Origin: a virus
Direction: 5' to 3' (one strand)
IMG/VR virus record: IMGVR_UViG_3300030106_003202
Span: 7,449-36,662 of that record
DNA: 29,214 bases
Positions 2,410 to 9,657 of this stretch are shown here, piece by piece; the stretch's first letter is position 1; the number at the start of each line of letters is the position of its first letter. The notes beneath the pieces were generated by a model. That model had not been told where the DNA came from and did no database searches. It was given only the letters and a program-made list of their open reading frames with translations. The translations under genes and the position numbers were made by a program.

Positions 2410-2679
2410 ATGATAACTCTTTCAGAAGATACAAAGTTTAGTTTAAGTCCAAAAAACTTTTTTACTATAGCTGTATTTATTGCTGGATTTGTTGGTATGT
2501 ATTATAGTTTACAGGCAGATATTCAAGAGGCTAAAGAATTACCAGAGCCTTCTCAAGTTCCAGTAGAACAAATGATTCAAATCCAAAAAGAGCTAACATT
2601 TATAAAAACAGAAATGTTAGAAATGAAAGAAACATTAAACAGATTAGACGACAGAATTTATACGCTTAAAAATAAGTAA
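2410..2679 (+). CDS. One-TM coiled-coil protein (spanin- or holin-like), 89 aa
   Basis: An 89-aa protein with a short N-terminal stretch, one hydrophobic helix at about residues 17-34 (FFTIAVFIAGFVGMYYSL), a Pro-rich linker at 44-52 (LPEPSQVPV), and a long heptad-like helix from 53 to the end. This is the layout of inner-membrane spanins and of small membrane partners in lysis cassettes. It sits directly before the amidase and holin, starting two bases after the preceding gene. There is no lipobox, so it is not an outer-membrane spanin. An accessory holin is also possible. The lysis role is inferred from topology and position. Confidence 0.65.
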   Translation: MITLSEDTKFSLSPKNFFTIAVFIAGFVGMYYSLQADIQEAKELPEPSQVPVEQMIQIQKELTFIKTEMLEMKETLNRLDDRIYTLKNK

Positions 2680-2682
2680 TAA

Positions 2683-3096
2683 ATGAGAGCAATAGAAAAA
2701 ATTGTAATTCATTGCTCAGCTACTCCCCGAAACAAAGACTTCTCAGCAGAAGATATTAGAGACTGGCACGTCAAAGGAAATGGCTGGAGCGATATAGGAT
2801 ATCATTTTGTAATACGTTTAGATGGTACTATTGAATATGGAAGAATGGTAGATAGATATGGCGCTCATGTAAAAAGCCATAACCTTAACAGTTTAGGCAT
2901 TTGTTATATAGGAGGTATGGATAAAGAGATGAATGAATGGGAAGACACCAGGACTGAAGAACAAAAAGAGTCTTTAATATTATTATTAAAAACTTTAAGA
3001 AAGTTTCATCCTAATGCTAAAATATATGGACATAGAGATTTTTCAAGTAAAGAATGTCCAAGTTTTGATGCAAAAACAGAATATAAAGATATATGA
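2683..3096 (+). CDS. Phage endolysin: N-acetylmuramoyl-L-alanine amidase (Amidase_2 / T7 lysozyme type)
   Basis: This 137-aa single-domain enzyme should cut the bond between N-acetylmuramic acid and L-alanine in peptidoglycan. The zinc ligands of the amidase_2 family are visible: H10 in IVIHCSATP, H117 in IYGHRDF, and C125 in KECPSF. K123 sits two before the cysteine and Y40 precedes H41 in GYHFVI, matching the spacing of the catalytic Tyr, His, Lys and Cys in T7 lysozyme (H17, Y46, H122, K128, C130). The length is close to T7 lysozyme. There is no signal peptide, so it needs a holin to cross the inner membrane. The last codons overlap the holin start (ATATGA). Confidence 0.93.
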   Translation: MRAIEKIVIHCSATPRNKDFSAEDIRDWHVKGNGWSDIGYHFVIRLDGTIEYGRMVDRYGAHVKSHNLNSLGICYIGGMDKEMNEWEDTRTEEQKESLILLLKTLRKFHPNAKIYGHRDFSSKECPSFDAKTEYKDI

Positions 3097-3497
3097 ATAT
3101 ATGGAGTAAAATATTTGGATCAGCAGGAATGGAGGTTGCTGATAAAGTAAGTGAGGTGGTTGACAAGTTTGTTGAAACGCCTGACGAAAAAAAAGAATTT
3201 AAAAAACAAATGATGCAGGTTTTTGCTGACAGCGTAGCTGATGAGCAAAAAAATGTAACCGAAAGATGGAAAAGCGATATGTCGTCTGATAGTCGTTTGT
3301 CAAAAACAGTAAGGCCTGCTGTATTAATTTTTTTAATTTTAAGTACAATCGTGCTTATTTTTATTGACTCAGGATTTATTAACTTTGTAGTTGACGATGA
3401 GTGGAAAGAATTATTAAAACTTTTACTTATGACAACGGTAGCCGCATACTTTGGTGGGCGCTCATACGAAAAAGGAACAAGGATAAAAAATAAATAA
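3093..3497 (+). CDS. Holin (3TM_holin-like family)
   Basis: A 134-aa membrane protein. An amphipathic N-terminal half (EVADKVSEVVDKFVETPDEK) is followed by RWKSDMSSDSRLSKTVRP, then hydrophobic helices at about 74-91 (AVLIFLILSTIVLIFID) and 105-121 (ELLKLLLMTTVAAYF), ending GGRSYEKGTRIKNK. The 'RWxxDMxSDSxLSKxVRP ... YFGGRSYEK' pattern is typical of phage holins grouped as Holin_3TMs. Holins form holes in the inner membrane that let the amidase out and so set lysis time. The start overlaps the amidase stop by four bases, which couples the two. Confidence is high from topology and neighbour. Confidence 0.88.
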   Translation: MNIWSKIFGSAGMEVADKVSEVVDKFVETPDEKKEFKKQMMQVFADSVADEQKNVTERWKSDMSSDSRLSKTVRPAVLIFLILSTIVLIFIDSGFINFVVDDEWKELLKLLLMTTVAAYFGGRSYEKGTRIKNK

Positions 3498-4220
3498 ATG
3501 GCCAGAATAGTAAGTTATCCATTACAAAATGTAGTAGTTGGAACCGATAAGTGGATTGGTTCTGATATGGTTAACGATGGCAAAACTGTAAATTTTAGTG
3601 CAGATGCTGTTGCAGTATTTTTAAACACCTTTAATAAAATAGAGGTAAATGCATTAAAATATAGATTTCAAAATTGGAATACAGGAGAAGAAAGAGAGCC
3701 AGGAACAATATCCTTTTCTACTTCTGGGATAGGCGGTCCTGCATTTAACACCATAAGTAGTTTTATGCTAAGTAAATTTCAATTAGCTTCTTTAATTGAT
3801 GTATCGTCTTATTATACAGTACCTTTAGTAGGCTCCACTGTAGTTATATCACAAGCTGATAATCCTTCAAAATTTGGTATTTATTCTTGGAATAGCGCTA
3901 CTCAAAATGCTCAAGAGTCTAATTTTTTTGATATCGGTGTAACTCTACAGGCCAGCACAGGTAGCTTAATAGACAACAAAGATTATTTCATATCTTTGCT
4001 GACGTATGCATCAGCGAGTTCTGGAGACAAAAACTTTGTGTTTTCGCAAAACGTAGCATCAGCAACGTGGAATGTAACACATAACTTAAACAAATATCCT
4101 TCAGTAAGCGTGGTGAACAGTGCAAACATTACAGTTTATGGAGATGTAGATTATGATTCATTAAATTCAGTAACCATAACTTTTAATGCTGCACATACAG
4201 GAAAAGCATTTTTTAACTAA
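3498..4220 (+). CDS. Tail fibre or appendage protein, 240 aa
   Basis: The N-terminus MARIVSYPLQNVVVGTDKWI followed by GSD and NDGKTVNFS resembles the start of the 1841-aa fibre (DLLIATD ... NNKTVTF), suggesting a shared virion-attachment module. The middle is beta-rich without recognisable domains. The C-terminus, about residues 191-240, holds SATWNVTHNLNKYPSVSVV, YGDVDY and TITFNAAHTGKAFFN, a 'W.V.HNLxKYPSVxVxxS' tip widespread in phage fibres of aquatic bacteria. The start is the base after the holin stop (TAAATGG). It probably forms a small fibre or chaperone-like tip that binds the host surface. The C-terminal motif is a known phage pattern; the exact role is inferred. Confidence 0.75.
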   Translation: MARIVSYPLQNVVVGTDKWIGSDMVNDGKTVNFSADAVAVFLNTFNKIEVNALKYRFQNWNTGEEREPGTISFSTSGIGGPAFNTISSFMLSKFQLASLIDVSSYYTVPLVGSTVVISQADNPSKFGIYSWNSATQNAQESNFFDIGVTLQASTGSLIDNKDYFISLLTYASASSGDKNFVFSQNVASATWNVTHNLNKYPSVSVVNSANITVYGDVDYDSLNSVTITFNAAHTGKAFFN

Positions 4221-4230
4221 AACAAAAAAC

Positions 4231-4626
4231 ATGACAAAAAATATTTTAACACTATTAATTACATTATTTTCACTAACAGCTTCTGCTCAGTTTATGGTAA
4301 CAAGTATGTTAAGTGAGCCAGCGGACGGAGAAGAAATGAGTTTAGATAATTTAACAGACAACATAGGAGTTATGTATTCTATGGATAAAATAAGTTTAGG
4401 AGTAATGATGAACGGAGAGGATTATGATTTAGTTGCCAGATATGCATTTGGTGATAAATTATTTGCTTATGGATTAGTTACAACTGAAGAAGAGAATGTT
4501 TCTTTAGGGGTAGGTTATGCATTAAATGTGTGGAACGAACTATACATAGAGCCTTCTTATTTAATAGACTTAGAAAACGAAGATCAAGAGGGAGAACTTA
4601 AATTTAGTTTGACCTATAAATTTTAA
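4231..4626 (+). CDS. Secreted outer-membrane beta-barrel-like protein, 131 aa
   Basis: I take the ATG at 4231, because it begins a textbook signal peptide (MTKNILTLLITLFSLTASAQ) with likely cleavage in TASA-QF, the usual Bacteroidota pattern. An in-frame ATG at 4186 would add 15 residues and overlap the previous gene. The mature chain alternates polar and apolar residues in strands (NIGVMYSMDKISLGVMM, YDLVARYAFGDKLFAYGLV, NVSLGVGYALNVWNELYIEP) and ends FSLTYKF, with the C-terminal Phe common in outer-membrane barrels. About six to eight strands are possible. It sits between two fibre genes. It could alter the infected cell's surface, for example blocking superinfection, or be a host-derived surface mimic. 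Function is inferred. Confidence 0.7.
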   Translation: MTKNILTLLITLFSLTASAQFMVTSMLSEPADGEEMSLDNLTDNIGVMYSMDKISLGVMMNGEDYDLVARYAFGDKLFAYGLVTTEEENVSLGVGYALNVWNELYIEPSYLIDLENEDQEGELKFSLTYKF

Positions 4627-4648: not shown

Positions 4649-7264
4649 ATGGCTATCAATTTTTTACAAAACGTATCCCTTAATAATACTGAGCTACAAA
4701 ATTTTAAAGTTCAAAATATTACAGGAACACTTCCTTCGGGTTTAGCTGGTGAAGGACAATTAATATACAAAACAGATACTAATGAATTATACCTTCACAA
4801 AGGTAGTAATTCGTGGGTAGATTTAGCGGCTGGAACTGTATCGTCTGTTGGTATATCAAGTAACTACTTTACTGTTGGAAGCTCTCCAATAACAAGTAGT
4901 GGTACGATATCGGTTGATATGCCAAATTCTGGTGTTACAGCAAACACTTATACTCATGCTACTATAACAGTAAATGCTCAGGGTGTTGTTACTTCTGCCG
5001 CAAGTGGAACAGCTACATTAGGTGTTACCTCATTTACTAATGCTAACGGAACATTTATTTCAGCAGGTACAACAAACTCGGCAGCTACTGGTGCTGTTAC
5101 AATGGGTACTATTGACTTATCAGCAAGTGGTACACCAAGTAATACAACCTTCCTTAGAGGGGATAATGTTTGGGCTACACCAGCAGGAGCATATACTTCA
5201 TGGAGTTTAGAGGCTGATTCTGGAACTGCTGTTGATATTACAGATGGTTTAAGAGTAGACTTTACTGGAGGAACAGGAATAAGCACAGCAGTTGCTTCAG
5301 CTACTCCAAATACACTGACTATTACAAATACGGGTGTTACTTCTGCGGTAGCAGGTTCAAACATTAGTGTATCAAGTGCTACAGGAGCGGTTACTATTGC
5401 TTATACTGGAGGTACAGGTTCTATGGATAGTTGGACTTTAGCAGGAGACAGTGGCTCTCAAAGTATTACTAATGGTAACACAGCTACATTTGTAGGTGGA
5501 ACCGGTTTAACAACAGCTGCAAGTGCAACTGACGATTTAACTATTACTCTGGATGATACAGCTGTTACGCCAGGCTCTTATACTTTAGCAAGTATTACAG
5601 TTGACCAGCAAGGTCGTATTACTGCGGCATCCAGTGGTTCTTCTGGTTCAATGTCTTCATGGACAATTCAAGGAGACTCGGGAAGTTCAACAGTAAGTAA
5701 TGGTCAAACAGTAGATATTGCTGGAGGAACATATTTAACAAGTGCTGAATCATCAAGAACTGTAACTTTAAATCACGATGCTACATCAAGAAGTGACACA
5801 ACAAGCACAGACAGTTTAGGTTCAGGAGGTTCATTTACAAAAGTTGACTCAATAACAACTAATGCAACAGGTCACGTTACTGCTATTAATGTTGAGACAG
5901 TAACAATAGGTTCTTTTGATAATTATGGTTCTTGGTCTTTAGCAGGTGACTCAGGATCAAACCAAACTATATCTTCTGGAAATACAGCAACTTTTACAGG
6001 AGGAACAGGTATATCAACAGAAGCTGGTACATCAACTGATGAGCTTACTATAACAAACACTGGGGTAACATCAGCAGTAGCAAGTACCGGAATTAGTGTA
6101 AGTGGAGCGACTGGTGCGGTAACATTTACCAATACAGGGGTAACTTCTATTGTGGCTGGAACTGGAATAAGTGTAAGTGGAGCGACAGGAGCTGTAACTG
6201 TAACTAATACTGTTACTAATACAGATGCTAATTATGCATTAAGCGTAGGAGCTGTATCTTCAAATGAATCTACATTGTCTTTAGTTGGTTCATCTGGTGG
6301 TTCTACAACAACAGCTAAATTCTCAGGAACAACAAACGAAATTGAAATTACAACTCCTTCTACAGGAAATGGTGGAGATATTACTATTGGTTTACCAAGT
6401 GATGTAACAATAGGTAATGACTTAACTGTAACTGGAGAGTTAACTGTTTCAGGAACTGGTCAATCATCTTTTGGTGGTCAAGTTACTGTCCCAGCAACTC
6501 CATCAGCTTCTACTGACGCTGCATCTAAAGGATATGTATTATCGCAAGTTGCAGGTGTAGGGTCTTTTCAAGGAGGTTACAACGCATCAACTAACTCTCC
6601 TGCATTAACTGGAGGTAGTAACATAGCTTTAACACAAGGTGATTTCTTTGCGGTAACAGTTGCAGGTTCATTCTTTACAGATAATTTAGAGCCAGGAGAT
6701 TTAATATTTGCTAATTCAGATATTACAGCAAGCTCTTCACCTTCACTATCTGACTATACAGTAGTAATAGCAGATGAAAACATCGCAGGTGCAGGTGCTA
6801 CAGACGGAGCTACAGAAAAAGGGGTTGCAGGATTTGATTCAGCAAACTTTGGGGTAACAGCAAATGGATTTGTTACTATTGATAACTCTGGTGTATCAGC
6901 AGGATCATACGGTGGTGTAACTAAATCACTAAGCGCAACTGTTGACGCTAAAGGTTTTGTGACAGCAATGTCAGAAAACACTATTGCAATACCAGCATCA
7001 CAAATTACAGATTTCTGTTCTGCTGTAGCAAACTGTATAAATACAAATTATAACTTTAAGACTACAATTACAGGAACATCACCATATACTGTAAATCATA
7101 ACTTAGGAACAAGAGACGTTATGGTGTATGTATATGACAATGCTTCTCCATATGAGCAAACATTTGTTGAGGTAGTACATACTGATACTGATAATGTAAC
7201 TATCAGCACAGCAGCTGATTTAGGTTCAGATGTACTAAAAGTTCTTGTAGTAGAGGTACTATAA
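4649..7264 (+). CDS. Long repetitive tail fibre protein, 871 aa
   Basis: An 871-aa Ser/Thr/Gly-rich fibre. Residues 1-60 form an N-terminal head (MAINFLQNVSLNNTELQNF ... NELYLHKGSNSWVDL). Four SWxLxGDSGS repeats span 184-473, mixed with GVTSxVAxxxISVSGATGAV units. A segment near 625-640 reads ASTDAASKGYVLSQ, the AATKxYVD-type joint seen in many fibres. A domain with AGAGATDGATEKGVAGFDSA follows, and the tip holds YTVNHNLGTRDVMVYVYDN and ends LKVLVVEVL. Such HNLGTRDVMVYV tips are common in phage fibres. It should be a homotrimeric receptor-binding shaft. Segments match parts of the 1841-aa fibre. It follows the barrel gene by 22 nt and ends before a long inverted repeat. Confidence 0.88.
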   Translation: MAINFLQNVSLNNTELQNFKVQNITGTLPSGLAGEGQLIYKTDTNELYLHKGSNSWVDLAAGTVSSVGISSNYFTVGSSPITSSGTISVDMPNSGVTANTYTHATITVNAQGVVTSAASGTATLGVTSFTNANGTFISAGTTNSAATGAVTMGTIDLSASGTPSNTTFLRGDNVWATPAGAYTSWSLEADSGTAVDITDGLRVDFTGGTGISTAVASATPNTLTITNTGVTSAVAGSNISVSSATGAVTIAYTGGTGSMDSWTLAGDSGSQSITNGNTATFVGGTGLTTAASATDDLTITLDDTAVTPGSYTLASITVDQQGRITAASSGSSGSMSSWTIQGDSGSSTVSNGQTVDIAGGTYLTSAESSRTVTLNHDATSRSDTTSTDSLGSGGSFTKVDSITTNATGHVTAINVETVTIGSFDNYGSWSLAGDSGSNQTISSGNTATFTGGTGISTEAGTSTDELTITNTGVTSAVASTGISVSGATGAVTFTNTGVTSIVAGTGISVSGATGAVTVTNTVTNTDANYALSVGAVSSNESTLSLVGSSGGSTTTAKFSGTTNEIEITTPSTGNGGDITIGLPSDVTIGNDLTVTGELTVSGTGQSSFGGQVTVPATPSASTDAASKGYVLSQVAGVGSFQGGYNASTNSPALTGGSNIALTQGDFFAVTVAGSFFTDNLEPGDLIFANSDITASSSPSLSDYTVVIADENIAGAGATDGATEKGVAGFDSANFGVTANGFVTIDNSGVSAGSYGGVTKSLSATVDAKGFVTAMSENTIAIPASQITDFCSAVANCINTNYNFKTTITGTSPYTVNHNLGTRDVMVYVYDNASPYEQTFVEVVHTDTDNVTISTAADLGSDVLKVLVVEVL
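5198..6067 (+). repeat. Four SWxLxGDSGS repeats within the 871-aa fibre
   Basis: Repeats lie at residues 184-230, 261-306, 337-378 and 428-473. Each runs SW(S/T)(L/I)xxDSGS, then a GNTATF-type strand, GGTGIST, and an LTIxNTGV end. DNA identity between copies is partial, so they are old or diversified. They likely form successive beta layers of the fibre shaft. Confidence 0.8.
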
Positions 7265-7340: not shown

Positions 7341-8765
7341 ATGTCTATAAATTTTGAACAATCTATATTTTTACCTGATAATAACAAAATTATATTAGGT
7401 AATGGTAGTGATTTACAAATATATCACGATGGTAGTAATAGTTATATTAATGAGTCAGGTACTGGAGATTTGTTAATTAGAGGTATTAATGTTCAAATTT
7501 CTAATACTTCGGATGTAAAAATGTTTAGAGGTGTATCAGCAGGAGAAGCTATACTTTATTATAACAACTCTAAAAAGCTTGAAACAACAGGTACAGGAAT
7601 AACAGTAACTGGAGGTGTTAATGCAACATCATCTTCAGATTTAGCTGGAGCAAATATGTCGGCAGGTATTGCAATGGGGACTAATGCTATTACAGGAATG
7701 GCTGACCCATCATCAGCTCAAGATGCTGCAACAAAAGCATATGTTGATAGTCAAATTTCTGGTGTTCCGCAAGGAACAGTAACGTCTGTTGCTACTGGAA
7801 CTGGATTAACAGGAGGAACTATCACGTCTTCTGGAACCATATCTGTTGACTCTTCTGTTGTATTAACTAATAACACGCAGACAATTTCAGGAGCCAAAAC
7901 TATTTCTGACACTTTAACAATGAGTGCTGATATAGATTTTGAAAACAGTAATGCTTCTATATTATTGGGAGCTTCAAGTACACTTCAGGTAGATGGTGAT
8001 GCAGGAGTTGGAAAATATTTAAAAAGTGTTTCGGGAGGATTACAATGGACTGCCATAACTCAAAATGCTGGAACCGTTACCTCTGTAGGTATTACAGCTG
8101 GAGCAGGAATTAGTGTTTCTGGATCACCAATAACATCTTCAGGAAATATTACTGTAACTAATACTATAACTGATAACAATCAATTGTCAAACGGAGCAGG
8201 ATATACAACAAATGCCGGTACCGTTACATCAATAGCAACTACATCACCTATTACTGGTGGTACAATAACTGGTTCAGGAACAATAGCTTTAGACCAGTCA
8301 GCTATAACAAGTTTATCTAATTTAGTTGAAACAGGAACGGTAACTGGAGGAGTTTGGAATACTAATACTCAGTTAAACAAAACATCTTCATCAGCTGGAG
8401 ATTATCAAGGAGAGGTTGTTTACTGGGCGTCAAGTACAGTGGTAAAATCAAAAGTATATGTTTATTCTGGAGGTGACTGGGTTGCCGCAGATGCAGATGC
8501 TGAATCTACATCAAAAGGAACTTTAGCTATTGCTCTAAATAGTGGTACATCTTCATCAGTTGGTATGCTAACAAGAGGAACATATACATTAATTGACTTA
8601 GGAGATGATGGAGACATATTACATCTTTCCACAAGTCCTGGTAGTTTAGTGGTTGAGCCACCAAGTGGCTCAGGAGATGTGGTAAGAATAGTTGGTCAAT
8701 TACTGGATAGTTCTAATGGTCAAATATTTTTTAATCCAGACAATACTTATATAACACTTTCATAA
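7341..8765 (+). CDS. Tail fibre protein with YHDGSNSYI head motif, 474 aa
   Basis: The N-terminus (MSINFEQSIFLPDNNKIILG ... LQIYHDGSNSYI) holds the QIYHDGSNSYI motif at 26-36, very frequent in fibres of marine phages, where it probably anchors or caps the shaft. Residues near 122-140 read DPSSAQDAATKAYVDSQI, the classic AATKAYVDSQ fibre hinge. Three GTVTSV units then follow (GITAGAGISVSGSPITSSGN is one), with strong likeness to units in the 871-aa and 1841-aa fibres. The C-terminal 110 residues contain SKVYVYSGGDWVAADADA and SVGMLTRGTYTLIDLGDDGD, a small beta tip of the kind found in 'cap' domains. Likely receptor-binding. It is the first gene after the promoter in the inverted repeat. Confidence 0.87.
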   Translation: MSINFEQSIFLPDNNKIILGNGSDLQIYHDGSNSYINESGTGDLLIRGINVQISNTSDVKMFRGVSAGEAILYYNNSKKLETTGTGITVTGGVNATSSSDLAGANMSAGIAMGTNAITGMADPSSAQDAATKAYVDSQISGVPQGTVTSVATGTGLTGGTITSSGTISVDSSVVLTNNTQTISGAKTISDTLTMSADIDFENSNASILLGASSTLQVDGDAGVGKYLKSVSGGLQWTAITQNAGTVTSVGITAGAGISVSGSPITSSGNITVTNTITDNNQLSNGAGYTTNAGTVTSIATTSPITGGTITGSGTIALDQSAITSLSNLVETGTVTGGVWNTNTQLNKTSSSAGDYQGEVVYWASSTVVKSKVYVYSGGDWVAADADAESTSKGTLAIALNSGTSSSVGMLTRGTYTLIDLGDDGDILHLSTSPGSLVVEPPSGSGDVVRIVGQLLDSSNGQIFFNPDNTYITLS

Positions 8766-8766
8766 T

Positions 8767-9657
8767 ATGTCTATAGCAAACGTTAGTGGTATAGCTATAG
8801 ATGGAATATCAGAAGTAAATAATTACACTAAAGCTCAAATAGATAAAATAAACAATGCTGATTTAGGTTCATCGTTTAGCACAGACTTTTCTTTAGACTT
8901 AAATGGAAGCACTCAATATGTTAATTTAGGAGATTTATCTTCAACAATTTTAGAACCTACACAATCTTCTGTTAACACCAGTGGAATATCTTTTACTTCT
9001 TGGGTTTATATTGACACTACTTCTGGTAATGCTATTTACAACATAGGTAATTCTGGCACAAATAACTATGGCGGATTTAAGGTTATTGTAAATGGTAATG
9101 GAGCTTTTGTGCTTCACGTTATGGGATTAAATGCAGGATTTTCTGGAGCTGGAAGTAATAATAGGAACACAATAAGAACAGCAAACTCAACTATAGCCGC
9201 AGGGCAGTGGTATCACTTAGCGGCTGTAATACCAGCAGGTAGTCTTGGTACTACACAAAACAGAAACAATTGGGTTCTTTATATAAATGGGTCGGCATAT
9301 TCGGGAACTTACACCAGGTCTGGAAATCAAAATGTTACTTTAAATTATGTTGGCAATAGTAGTCTTGGGGCTTGGACAAGGTCTTCACCAGCAATAGGTA
9401 GTCCTTTTGATGGAGAGCTAAATAATTTAGCAATATTTAACACAGGATTAGACGCCTCAAATGTTGCTGCTATTTATAACTCTGGAGCACCTATTGATTT
9501 AAGTACAAATTCAGGAAATTATACTCAGTCTTCTAATCTTGCGGCATGGTGGAGATTTAATGAAGGCTCTGGAACTTCATACACAGACAGTACAGGTAAT
9601 GGCTTTACAGGCACAGGGGTTGGGTCACCTACATATAGCACTAATGTTCCAACATAA
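8767..9657 (+). CDS. LamG / concanavalin-A-like lectin appendage protein, 296 aa
   Basis: After a short N-terminal arm (YTKAQIDKINNADLGSSF), the rest is a LamG-like jelly roll. Strands include FSLDLNGSTQYVNLGDL, GISFTSWVYIDTTSGNAIYN, GQWYHLAAVIPAG, NWVLYINGSAYSGTY, FDGELNNLAIFNTGLDASNV and LAAWWRFNEGSGTSYTDSTG. The pattern 'W.h.A.....N...lYinG' followed by 'G.l.ela.f...L' and 'AWWRFNEGSG' is characteristic of LamG_3-type domains that bind sugars. It starts two bases after the stop of the preceding fibre. It probably binds cell-surface or capsular glycan as a fibre tip or accessory adhesin. There is no signal peptide, which fits a virion part and not a secreted enzyme. Confidence 0.87.
   Translation: MSIANVSGIAIDGISEVNNYTKAQIDKINNADLGSSFSTDFSLDLNGSTQYVNLGDLSSTILEPTQSSVNTSGISFTSWVYIDTTSGNAIYNIGNSGTNNYGGFKVIVNGNGAFVLHVMGLNAGFSGAGSNNRNTIRTANSTIAAGQWYHLAAVIPAGSLGTTQNRNNWVLYINGSAYSGTYTRSGNQNVTLNYVGNSSLGAWTRSSPAIGSPFDGELNNLAIFNTGLDASNVAAIYNSGAPIDLSTNSGNYTQSSNLAAWWRFNEGSGTSYTDSTGNGFTGTGVGSPTYSTNVPT

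Follow-up and report, generated by a model that had tools for sequence, protein, structure and literature searches.

Why should a phage encode what appears to be a bacterial outer-membrane protein, and why does the gene stand among fibre-like genes? We addressed these questions for a small gene in the window, by which we mean the whole stretch of DNA analysed here, 29,214 bases of a virus record of 37,175 bases. The terminase region of the window shares approximately 69% DNA identity with MW202828, an uncultured Podoviridae record from Manatee Spring, and is approximately 71% identical to Flavobacterium Elemovirus phages over one quarter of the query. A search of 50,697 catalogued phage records with the protein of interest yielded no significant match (two hits, E = 0.4 and 0.7), and the gene is therefore an accessory gene within the podovirus kin of the window. 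The window virus is a phage of marine flavobacteria, and the gene is its own version of one for a small bacterial barrel of the outer membrane.

The barrel gene and its neighbours

The locus contains the following features:

2410..3497, + strand: lysis-type block, one gene upstream of the barrel gene
2410-2679, + strand: transmembrane/coiled-coil-looking protein (by eye)
2683-3096, + strand: amidase (Amidase_2, E = 2.5e-15; phrog_822)
3093-3497, + strand: holin (GTA_holin_3TM, E = 2e-5; phrog_3427)
3498..4220, + strand: upstream fibre-like gene, 240 aa (phrog_34633, unknown function, residues 174-240, E = 3.8e-18; cluster 0)
4231..4626, + strand: barrel coding sequence, 131 aa (start 4231, stop 4624-4626)
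4231..4287, + strand: signal peptide, residues 1-19, proposed cleavage ASA/Q (by eye and from the invariant ASAQFMV)
4288..4623, + strand: predicted mature eight-stranded barrel, residues 20-131 (AlphaFold2 model m7466ba864e3f, VIA-align matches)
4649..7264, + strand: downstream fibre-like gene, 871 aa (phrog_8309, unknown function, E = 2.5e-8; cluster 0)

The coordinates and frame given to the barrel gene by an earlier, sequence-only reading are correct, and the coding sequence is real. An alternative in-frame ATG at 4186 would give a longer reading frame that overlaps the preceding gene; since the close homologues L008, L012 and L013 carry a stop codon just upstream of the ATG equivalent to 4231, translation likely starts at 4231. 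Purifying selection on the barrel is strong, with dN/dS about 0.1 (0.075-0.131 for the window copy against L007, L008 and L009, and 0.069-0.204 for 15 pairs among six further relatives). The sequence-only reading raised the possibility that the barrel blocks re-adsorption by sister phages, which is still a hypothesis; such conservation would argue mildly against an arms-race receptor mimic.

Gaps of only 10 nt to the upstream and 22 nt to the downstream fibre-like gene suggest that the three genes share one transcript. The proposed location between two fibre genes stood in part: the gene at 7341-8765, one past the downstream neighbour, matches a tail-fibre PHROG (6.8e-16), whereas the two direct neighbours are fibre-like on weak evidence and match PHROGs of unknown function. 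Also among the fibre genes, 8767-9657 encodes a lectin-like Laminin_G_3 domain (PF13385, E = 1.9e-12).

Predicted fold and cellular location

The N-terminus of the protein, MTKNILTLLITLFSLTASAQ, fits by eye a signal peptide cut at ASA/Q, and ASAQFMV is invariant in 43 of the 43 members of alignment A2. Cysteine is absent at the cut, so the barrel does not appear, by eye, to be a lipoprotein. The C-terminus is SLTYKF, with Phe as the last residue. AlphaFold2 modelling on A2 (43 sequences) produced eight strands with a mean pLDDT of 82.9 and a pTM of 0.68, covering residues 20-28, 45-51, 54-61, 64-73, 77-84, 89-101 (with a break at 97), 104-113 and 121-130. In the model, the mature protein is all barrel, with no extra periplasmic domain; it comprises about 112 residues and is acidic (22 Asp/Glu versus 5 Lys/Arg from residue 21 onward). 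The summed inside/outside hydrophobicity difference over the eight strands was 13.0, compared with 5.4 ± 1.5 in within-strand shuffles (p = 5e-5, the lowest value that 20,000 shuffles allow), with the lipid-facing side assumed rather than taken from coordinates. The signal peptide, the alternating pattern and the terminal Phe noticed earlier were thus borne out, and together with the eight strands they are the features of the OmpA class of eight-stranded barrels.

Structural comparison likewise agreed with the proposed outer-membrane-type barrel, with OprF/OmpA-type proteins being the closest. When the Foldseek candidates were re-aligned with VIA-align, the OprF barrel 4rlc ranked at the top (Z 12.9, rmsd 2.9, 103 residues), followed by Opa60 (12.3), a designed transmembrane barrel (12.2) and OmpA 1qjp (11.6). 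Soluble eight-stranded avidin-type barrels reached Z 11.5 in the same re-alignment, near the outer-membrane scores, and the Foldseek search of the PDB itself returned nothing at E <= 0.001 (best 0.0064, OmpA). In a viral-structure library, the best Foldseek match was an uncultured-virus protein (E = 8e-9, 36% identity), and the next were phage proteins, several of them annotated as outer-membrane barrels, for example from Vibrio phage nt-1. At the sequence level, nothing exceeded the cut-off in Pfam, NCBIfam or PHROG, and a search against solved structures gave three chance-level matches (E = 0.066 or worse). We favour an outer-membrane over a soluble barrel because of the signal peptide, the terminal Phe and the chromosomal homologues described below. 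Taken alone, the fold and the outer-membrane location are very likely to be correct.

We also considered a loop-specific divergence between host and phage copies, given that identity is 0.20 in loop 1 and 0.51 in the strands. The periplasmic turns also have low identity (0.17-0.49), and a long host insert escapes the 62-63 measure; therefore, this claim was dropped.

Phage contexts, a membrane partner and chromosomal counterparts

Viral loci for the barrel numbered 16 with the window protein as the query, 65 with a first alignment and 128 stretches with A2. Contexts were counted on the best 80 of these 128 stretches, each on its own contig, and neighbour genes that had not been scanned were named by eye or by cluster. 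A fibre context like that of the window was found in 22 of the 80 contigs (20 by rule, with L001 and L003 added by eye; L001 and L075 lack the upstream gene). The podovirus relatives L097 and L098 have the barrel elsewhere, placed between genes that adjoin each other in the window. Seven contigs have the barrel adjoining a ribonucleotide-reductase (RNR) gene or its usual neighbour; in 19, it lies among head genes, of which the portal, head protease and major head protein match PHROGs, and these contexts are T4-like in gene order by our reading. A further 22 place it in a block that contains either an HD-type phosphohydrolase-like gene or genes neighbouring such a gene, four (L032, L033, L106 and L110) by lysis-type genes, and four (L031, L092, L102 and L122) remained unclassified. 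L106 also carries a tape-measure-like gene (by eye). The spread over several unrelated phage contexts suggests that the barrel is cargo that entered several kinds of phage.

Two other exported proteins were observed on these contigs. L026:3600-4697 (-) and L106:7234-8331 (+) encode cluster 50 proteins of ~350-365 aa with a signal peptide, beside lysis-type genes, which are possibly another phage-encoded envelope protein. L033:4575-4952 and L106:8621-9025 encode a small exported protein, thioredoxin-like by eye, adjoining a holin-cluster gene; the L033 copy gave no PHROG or Pfam match.

The sequence-only reading had suggested that the barrel acts as a partner to the fibres. As a rule this does not hold, given the share of fibre contexts and the fact that in 51 of the best 80 contigs the gene next to the barrel is another one, coding for a membrane protein of 74 residues and two hydrophobic helices. 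This partner lies downstream of the barrel in 49 contigs and upstream in two. The 29 contigs that lack it are all 24 podovirus-type contigs, several of which end soon after the barrel, and five of the seven RNR-type contigs; in the remaining two, L113 and L132, the partner sits between the barrel and the gene that is otherwise next to it, so that a gain or loss of the partner is visible at one site. When we searched with the partner first, 351 viral stretches were obtained, and among the best 80, which overlap partly with the 80 barrel contigs, the barrel was directly upstream in 78 and directly downstream in one; the remaining locus has only 29 bases of upstream sequence. The pairing is thus nearly exclusive on the partner side. 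Among 18 whole virus records searched, the partner was matched in three (G311, G312 and G313), with no match in the window's record or in 14 of the 17 others. The window lineage has the barrel alone and does not represent the two-protein version. In L272, a viral contig of 232,028 bases, the order is reversed: the partner comes first and a divergent barrel (E = 6.6e-8) second. The barrel and partner of a T4-like carrier had no match at 0.1 among the 50,697 catalogued phages. Antisense cluster 7 reading frames overlap the partner gene and were rejected as genes.

The partner has neither a Pfam nor a PHROG assignment, and its model is helical (mean pLDDT 63.1, pTM 0.27), too weak for a structure search. 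Its small-holin size and two-helix pattern bring in the idea of a late helper of lysis, in which the barrel, with the partner where present, would weaken or link both membranes and aid release. The gene order in part of the family fits: the window barrel follows one gene after the amidase/holin block, the barrel comes after holin-cluster and M15-endolysin-cluster genes in L106 and L110, and the barrel-partner pair precedes a holin-cluster gene in L032 and L033. There is also a striking lambdoid parallel, since lambdoid phages co-transfer lom with a holin gene, and the authors suggest that Lom may act in lysis (PMC9836094). However, the immediate neighbours are not lysis genes in the T4-like head, RNR and HD-type contexts, L106 holds a holin-cluster gene besides the partner, and the closest holin family, phrog_526, was matched at E = 2 in two of 14 partner members. 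Chromosomal and usually tandem homologues of the partner in small marine flavobacteria would also be odd for a lethal holin. We consider a lysis role unlikely.

These chromosomal homologues concern both genes. A search of genome contigs showed that two Flavobacteriales metagenome-assembled genomes encode a relative of the barrel, and among 296 Flavobacteriales genomes drawn for the search, the barrel was found in 48 (E <= 1e-4; including G084, a weak match at E = 1e-7) and the partner in 69 (E <= 0.01; including G149, a partial match at E = 0.004 that is probably due to chance). Both genes occurred together in 40 genomes, compared with 11.2 expected if they were independent, an excess that common ancestry inflates; as kinship and genome incompleteness are ignored here, the hypergeometric value was not used as a probability. 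The barrel-bearing genomes are small (0.8-2.1 Mb).

We drew eight host barrel regions from the 48 genomes and nine host partner regions from the 69. In seven of the eight barrel regions, the barrel is flanked by alaS and a porin-like gene, with a short additional reading frame intervening in one of them; L193 differs, and the barrels of L069 and L070 lie by hisS. A short-chain dehydrogenase gene adjoins the host partner in all nine regions and polA in eight (two with a small extra reading frame between or opposite). The alaS, hisS, polA, dehydrogenase and porin-like genes were Pfam-checked in one region each, the porin-like gene falling below the Pfam cut-off. Between the dehydrogenase gene and polA, the host partner (L196-L204) usually occurs twice in tandem, as two-helix proteins that have diverged from each other, and one host genome has two tandem chromosomal copies of the barrel (G099:C16:22378-23292). 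G047, G131, G013 and G141 each have a contig with both genes, and the distance between the two is about 84-243 kb. In none of the host regions read do the two stand next to each other, so the phage cassette brings together what are separate loci there. Homologues beside a porin-like gene, together with the signal peptide, lend indirect support to the earlier proposal that the barrel is made in the infected cell and placed in its outer membrane.

A tree was built from 67 phage and 31 host proteins (98 in all), and one branch with support 97/89 splits the phage from the chromosomal copies. The truncated L065-L068 and L132, the window's copy L017, duplicate sequences and any shorter than 120 aa were left out. 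As the alignment has only 143 columns and the tree has no outgroup, it does not give the direction or number of transfers; it would be compatible with a single ancient transfer, and we infer a host origin for the phage barrel.

The chromosomal copies raise the alternative that the phage takes over host physiology by resupplying an outer-membrane protein, mostly together with an inner-membrane one, whose loss in the course of infection would impair uptake or the integrity of the envelope, much like other auxiliary genes. The homology of both genes to those of small-genome Flavobacteriales, the presence of the partner in 40 of the 48 barrel genomes and the strong purifying selection on the barrel all point this way. 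Against it, the tree sets the phage copies apart as a sub-family instead of showing them as recent host copies, and eight-stranded barrels have little or no pore. We judge this role to be rather improbable. An eight-stranded barrel that serves as a virion component in the tail or fibre complex would explain why the gene lies between fibre-like genes in 22 of the 80 contigs, and soluble eight-stranded barrels do score nearly as high structurally. Nevertheless, the invariant signal-peptide end ASAQ, the homologues that lie next to chromosomal housekeeping genes in the host regions read and the position away from fibre genes in most carriers make it very hard to sustain.

A putative mechanism and comparison with known systems

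After weighing these data, we prefer a putative mechanism in which a cargo gene of the phage, with a homologue on Flavobacteriales chromosomes, encodes a minimal barrel of the OmpA class. The gene would be expressed late in infection and co-transcribed with virion genes, because it sits in a tight run with them. The product would be exported via its signal peptide by the host Sec route and inserted into the outer membrane of the infected cell by the host barrel machinery. The altered envelope may then bar further phages (superinfection exclusion), which we guess to be the most likely of three purposes, with lysis support and host-function takeover as close rivals. Most carriers would have a component acting at each membrane, the barrel at the outer and the two-helix partner at the inner one; the barrel of the window lineage may act alone or with an unrelated partner. 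The statement as a whole, including the guessed function, is tentative and falls clearly short of an even chance.

We further speculate that two far-apart host envelope genes, one for a barrel of the outer membrane and one for a two-helix protein of the inner membrane, were assembled into a two-membrane cassette that spread across podovirus-, siphovirus- and T4-like phages and the 232-kb viral contig and acts as a unit on phage entry or exit. This idea comes close to an even chance without reaching it. If it is true, a partnership would be predicted between the two host proteins, which are encoded far apart. The occurrence of barrel and partner in unrelated marine viruses hints at a shared way of remodelling the surface of the infected cell.

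Precedents for superinfection exclusion exist at both membranes, with Llp of T5 at the outer and Imm of T4 at the inner membrane. The likeness lies in the proposed working principle only; Llp is a lipoprotein, which the window barrel does not appear to be. Mimicry of type IX secretion was considered through PorP/SprF (PF11751), the barrel of that system in Bacteroidota, and GldL. Seven of eight close members matched PF11751 weakly (best E = 0.007), and profile comparison gave a Prob of 61% over 71 columns; the window barrel scored 12.3 bits against a cut-off of 22.3 and is less than half as long as PorP/SprF. The partner failed clearly in comparison with the N-termini of seven GldL sequences from host genomes (hhalign Prob 0.5%). 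The mimicry idea was rejected, the barrel match being partial and possibly generic.

A literature search on phage-encoded outer-membrane barrels in flavobacteria did not find the barrel family in titles or abstracts, and one on the PA-2 porin gave no result. R9TIU5 from Vibrio phage nt-1 is also a phage gene product predicted to fold as an outer-membrane barrel (Foldseek E = 3.5e-4), but it shares 12% identity, belongs to another host and shows no sign of a shared gene pair. Lambda Lom is an eight-stranded barrel encoded near host-recognition fibre genes, and the window protein resembles it in being a phage-encoded, predicted eight-stranded barrel in proximity to fibre-like genes. By its model, the window protein belongs to the eight-stranded class of Ail/Lom, with Ail 3qra at a Foldseek E of 0.011 (above 0.001). 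Lom is described as an outer-membrane protein of a phage late operon (PMC9836094). The window family differs from Lom in that it has chromosomal homologues in Flavobacteriales, is often paired with a two-helix protein and lacks PF06316 (Ail/Lom) among the Pfam matches of the window protein and of eight members. Phage-encoded outer-membrane barrels are a known kind. Within the searches made, what is new comprises the barrel family, the counterpart of the barrel on small-genome Flavobacteriales chromosomes and the near-exclusive pairing seen in most carriers with another membrane protein, and this pairing provides a testable handle on both the role of phage barrels and the envelope of small-genome marine flavobacteria.
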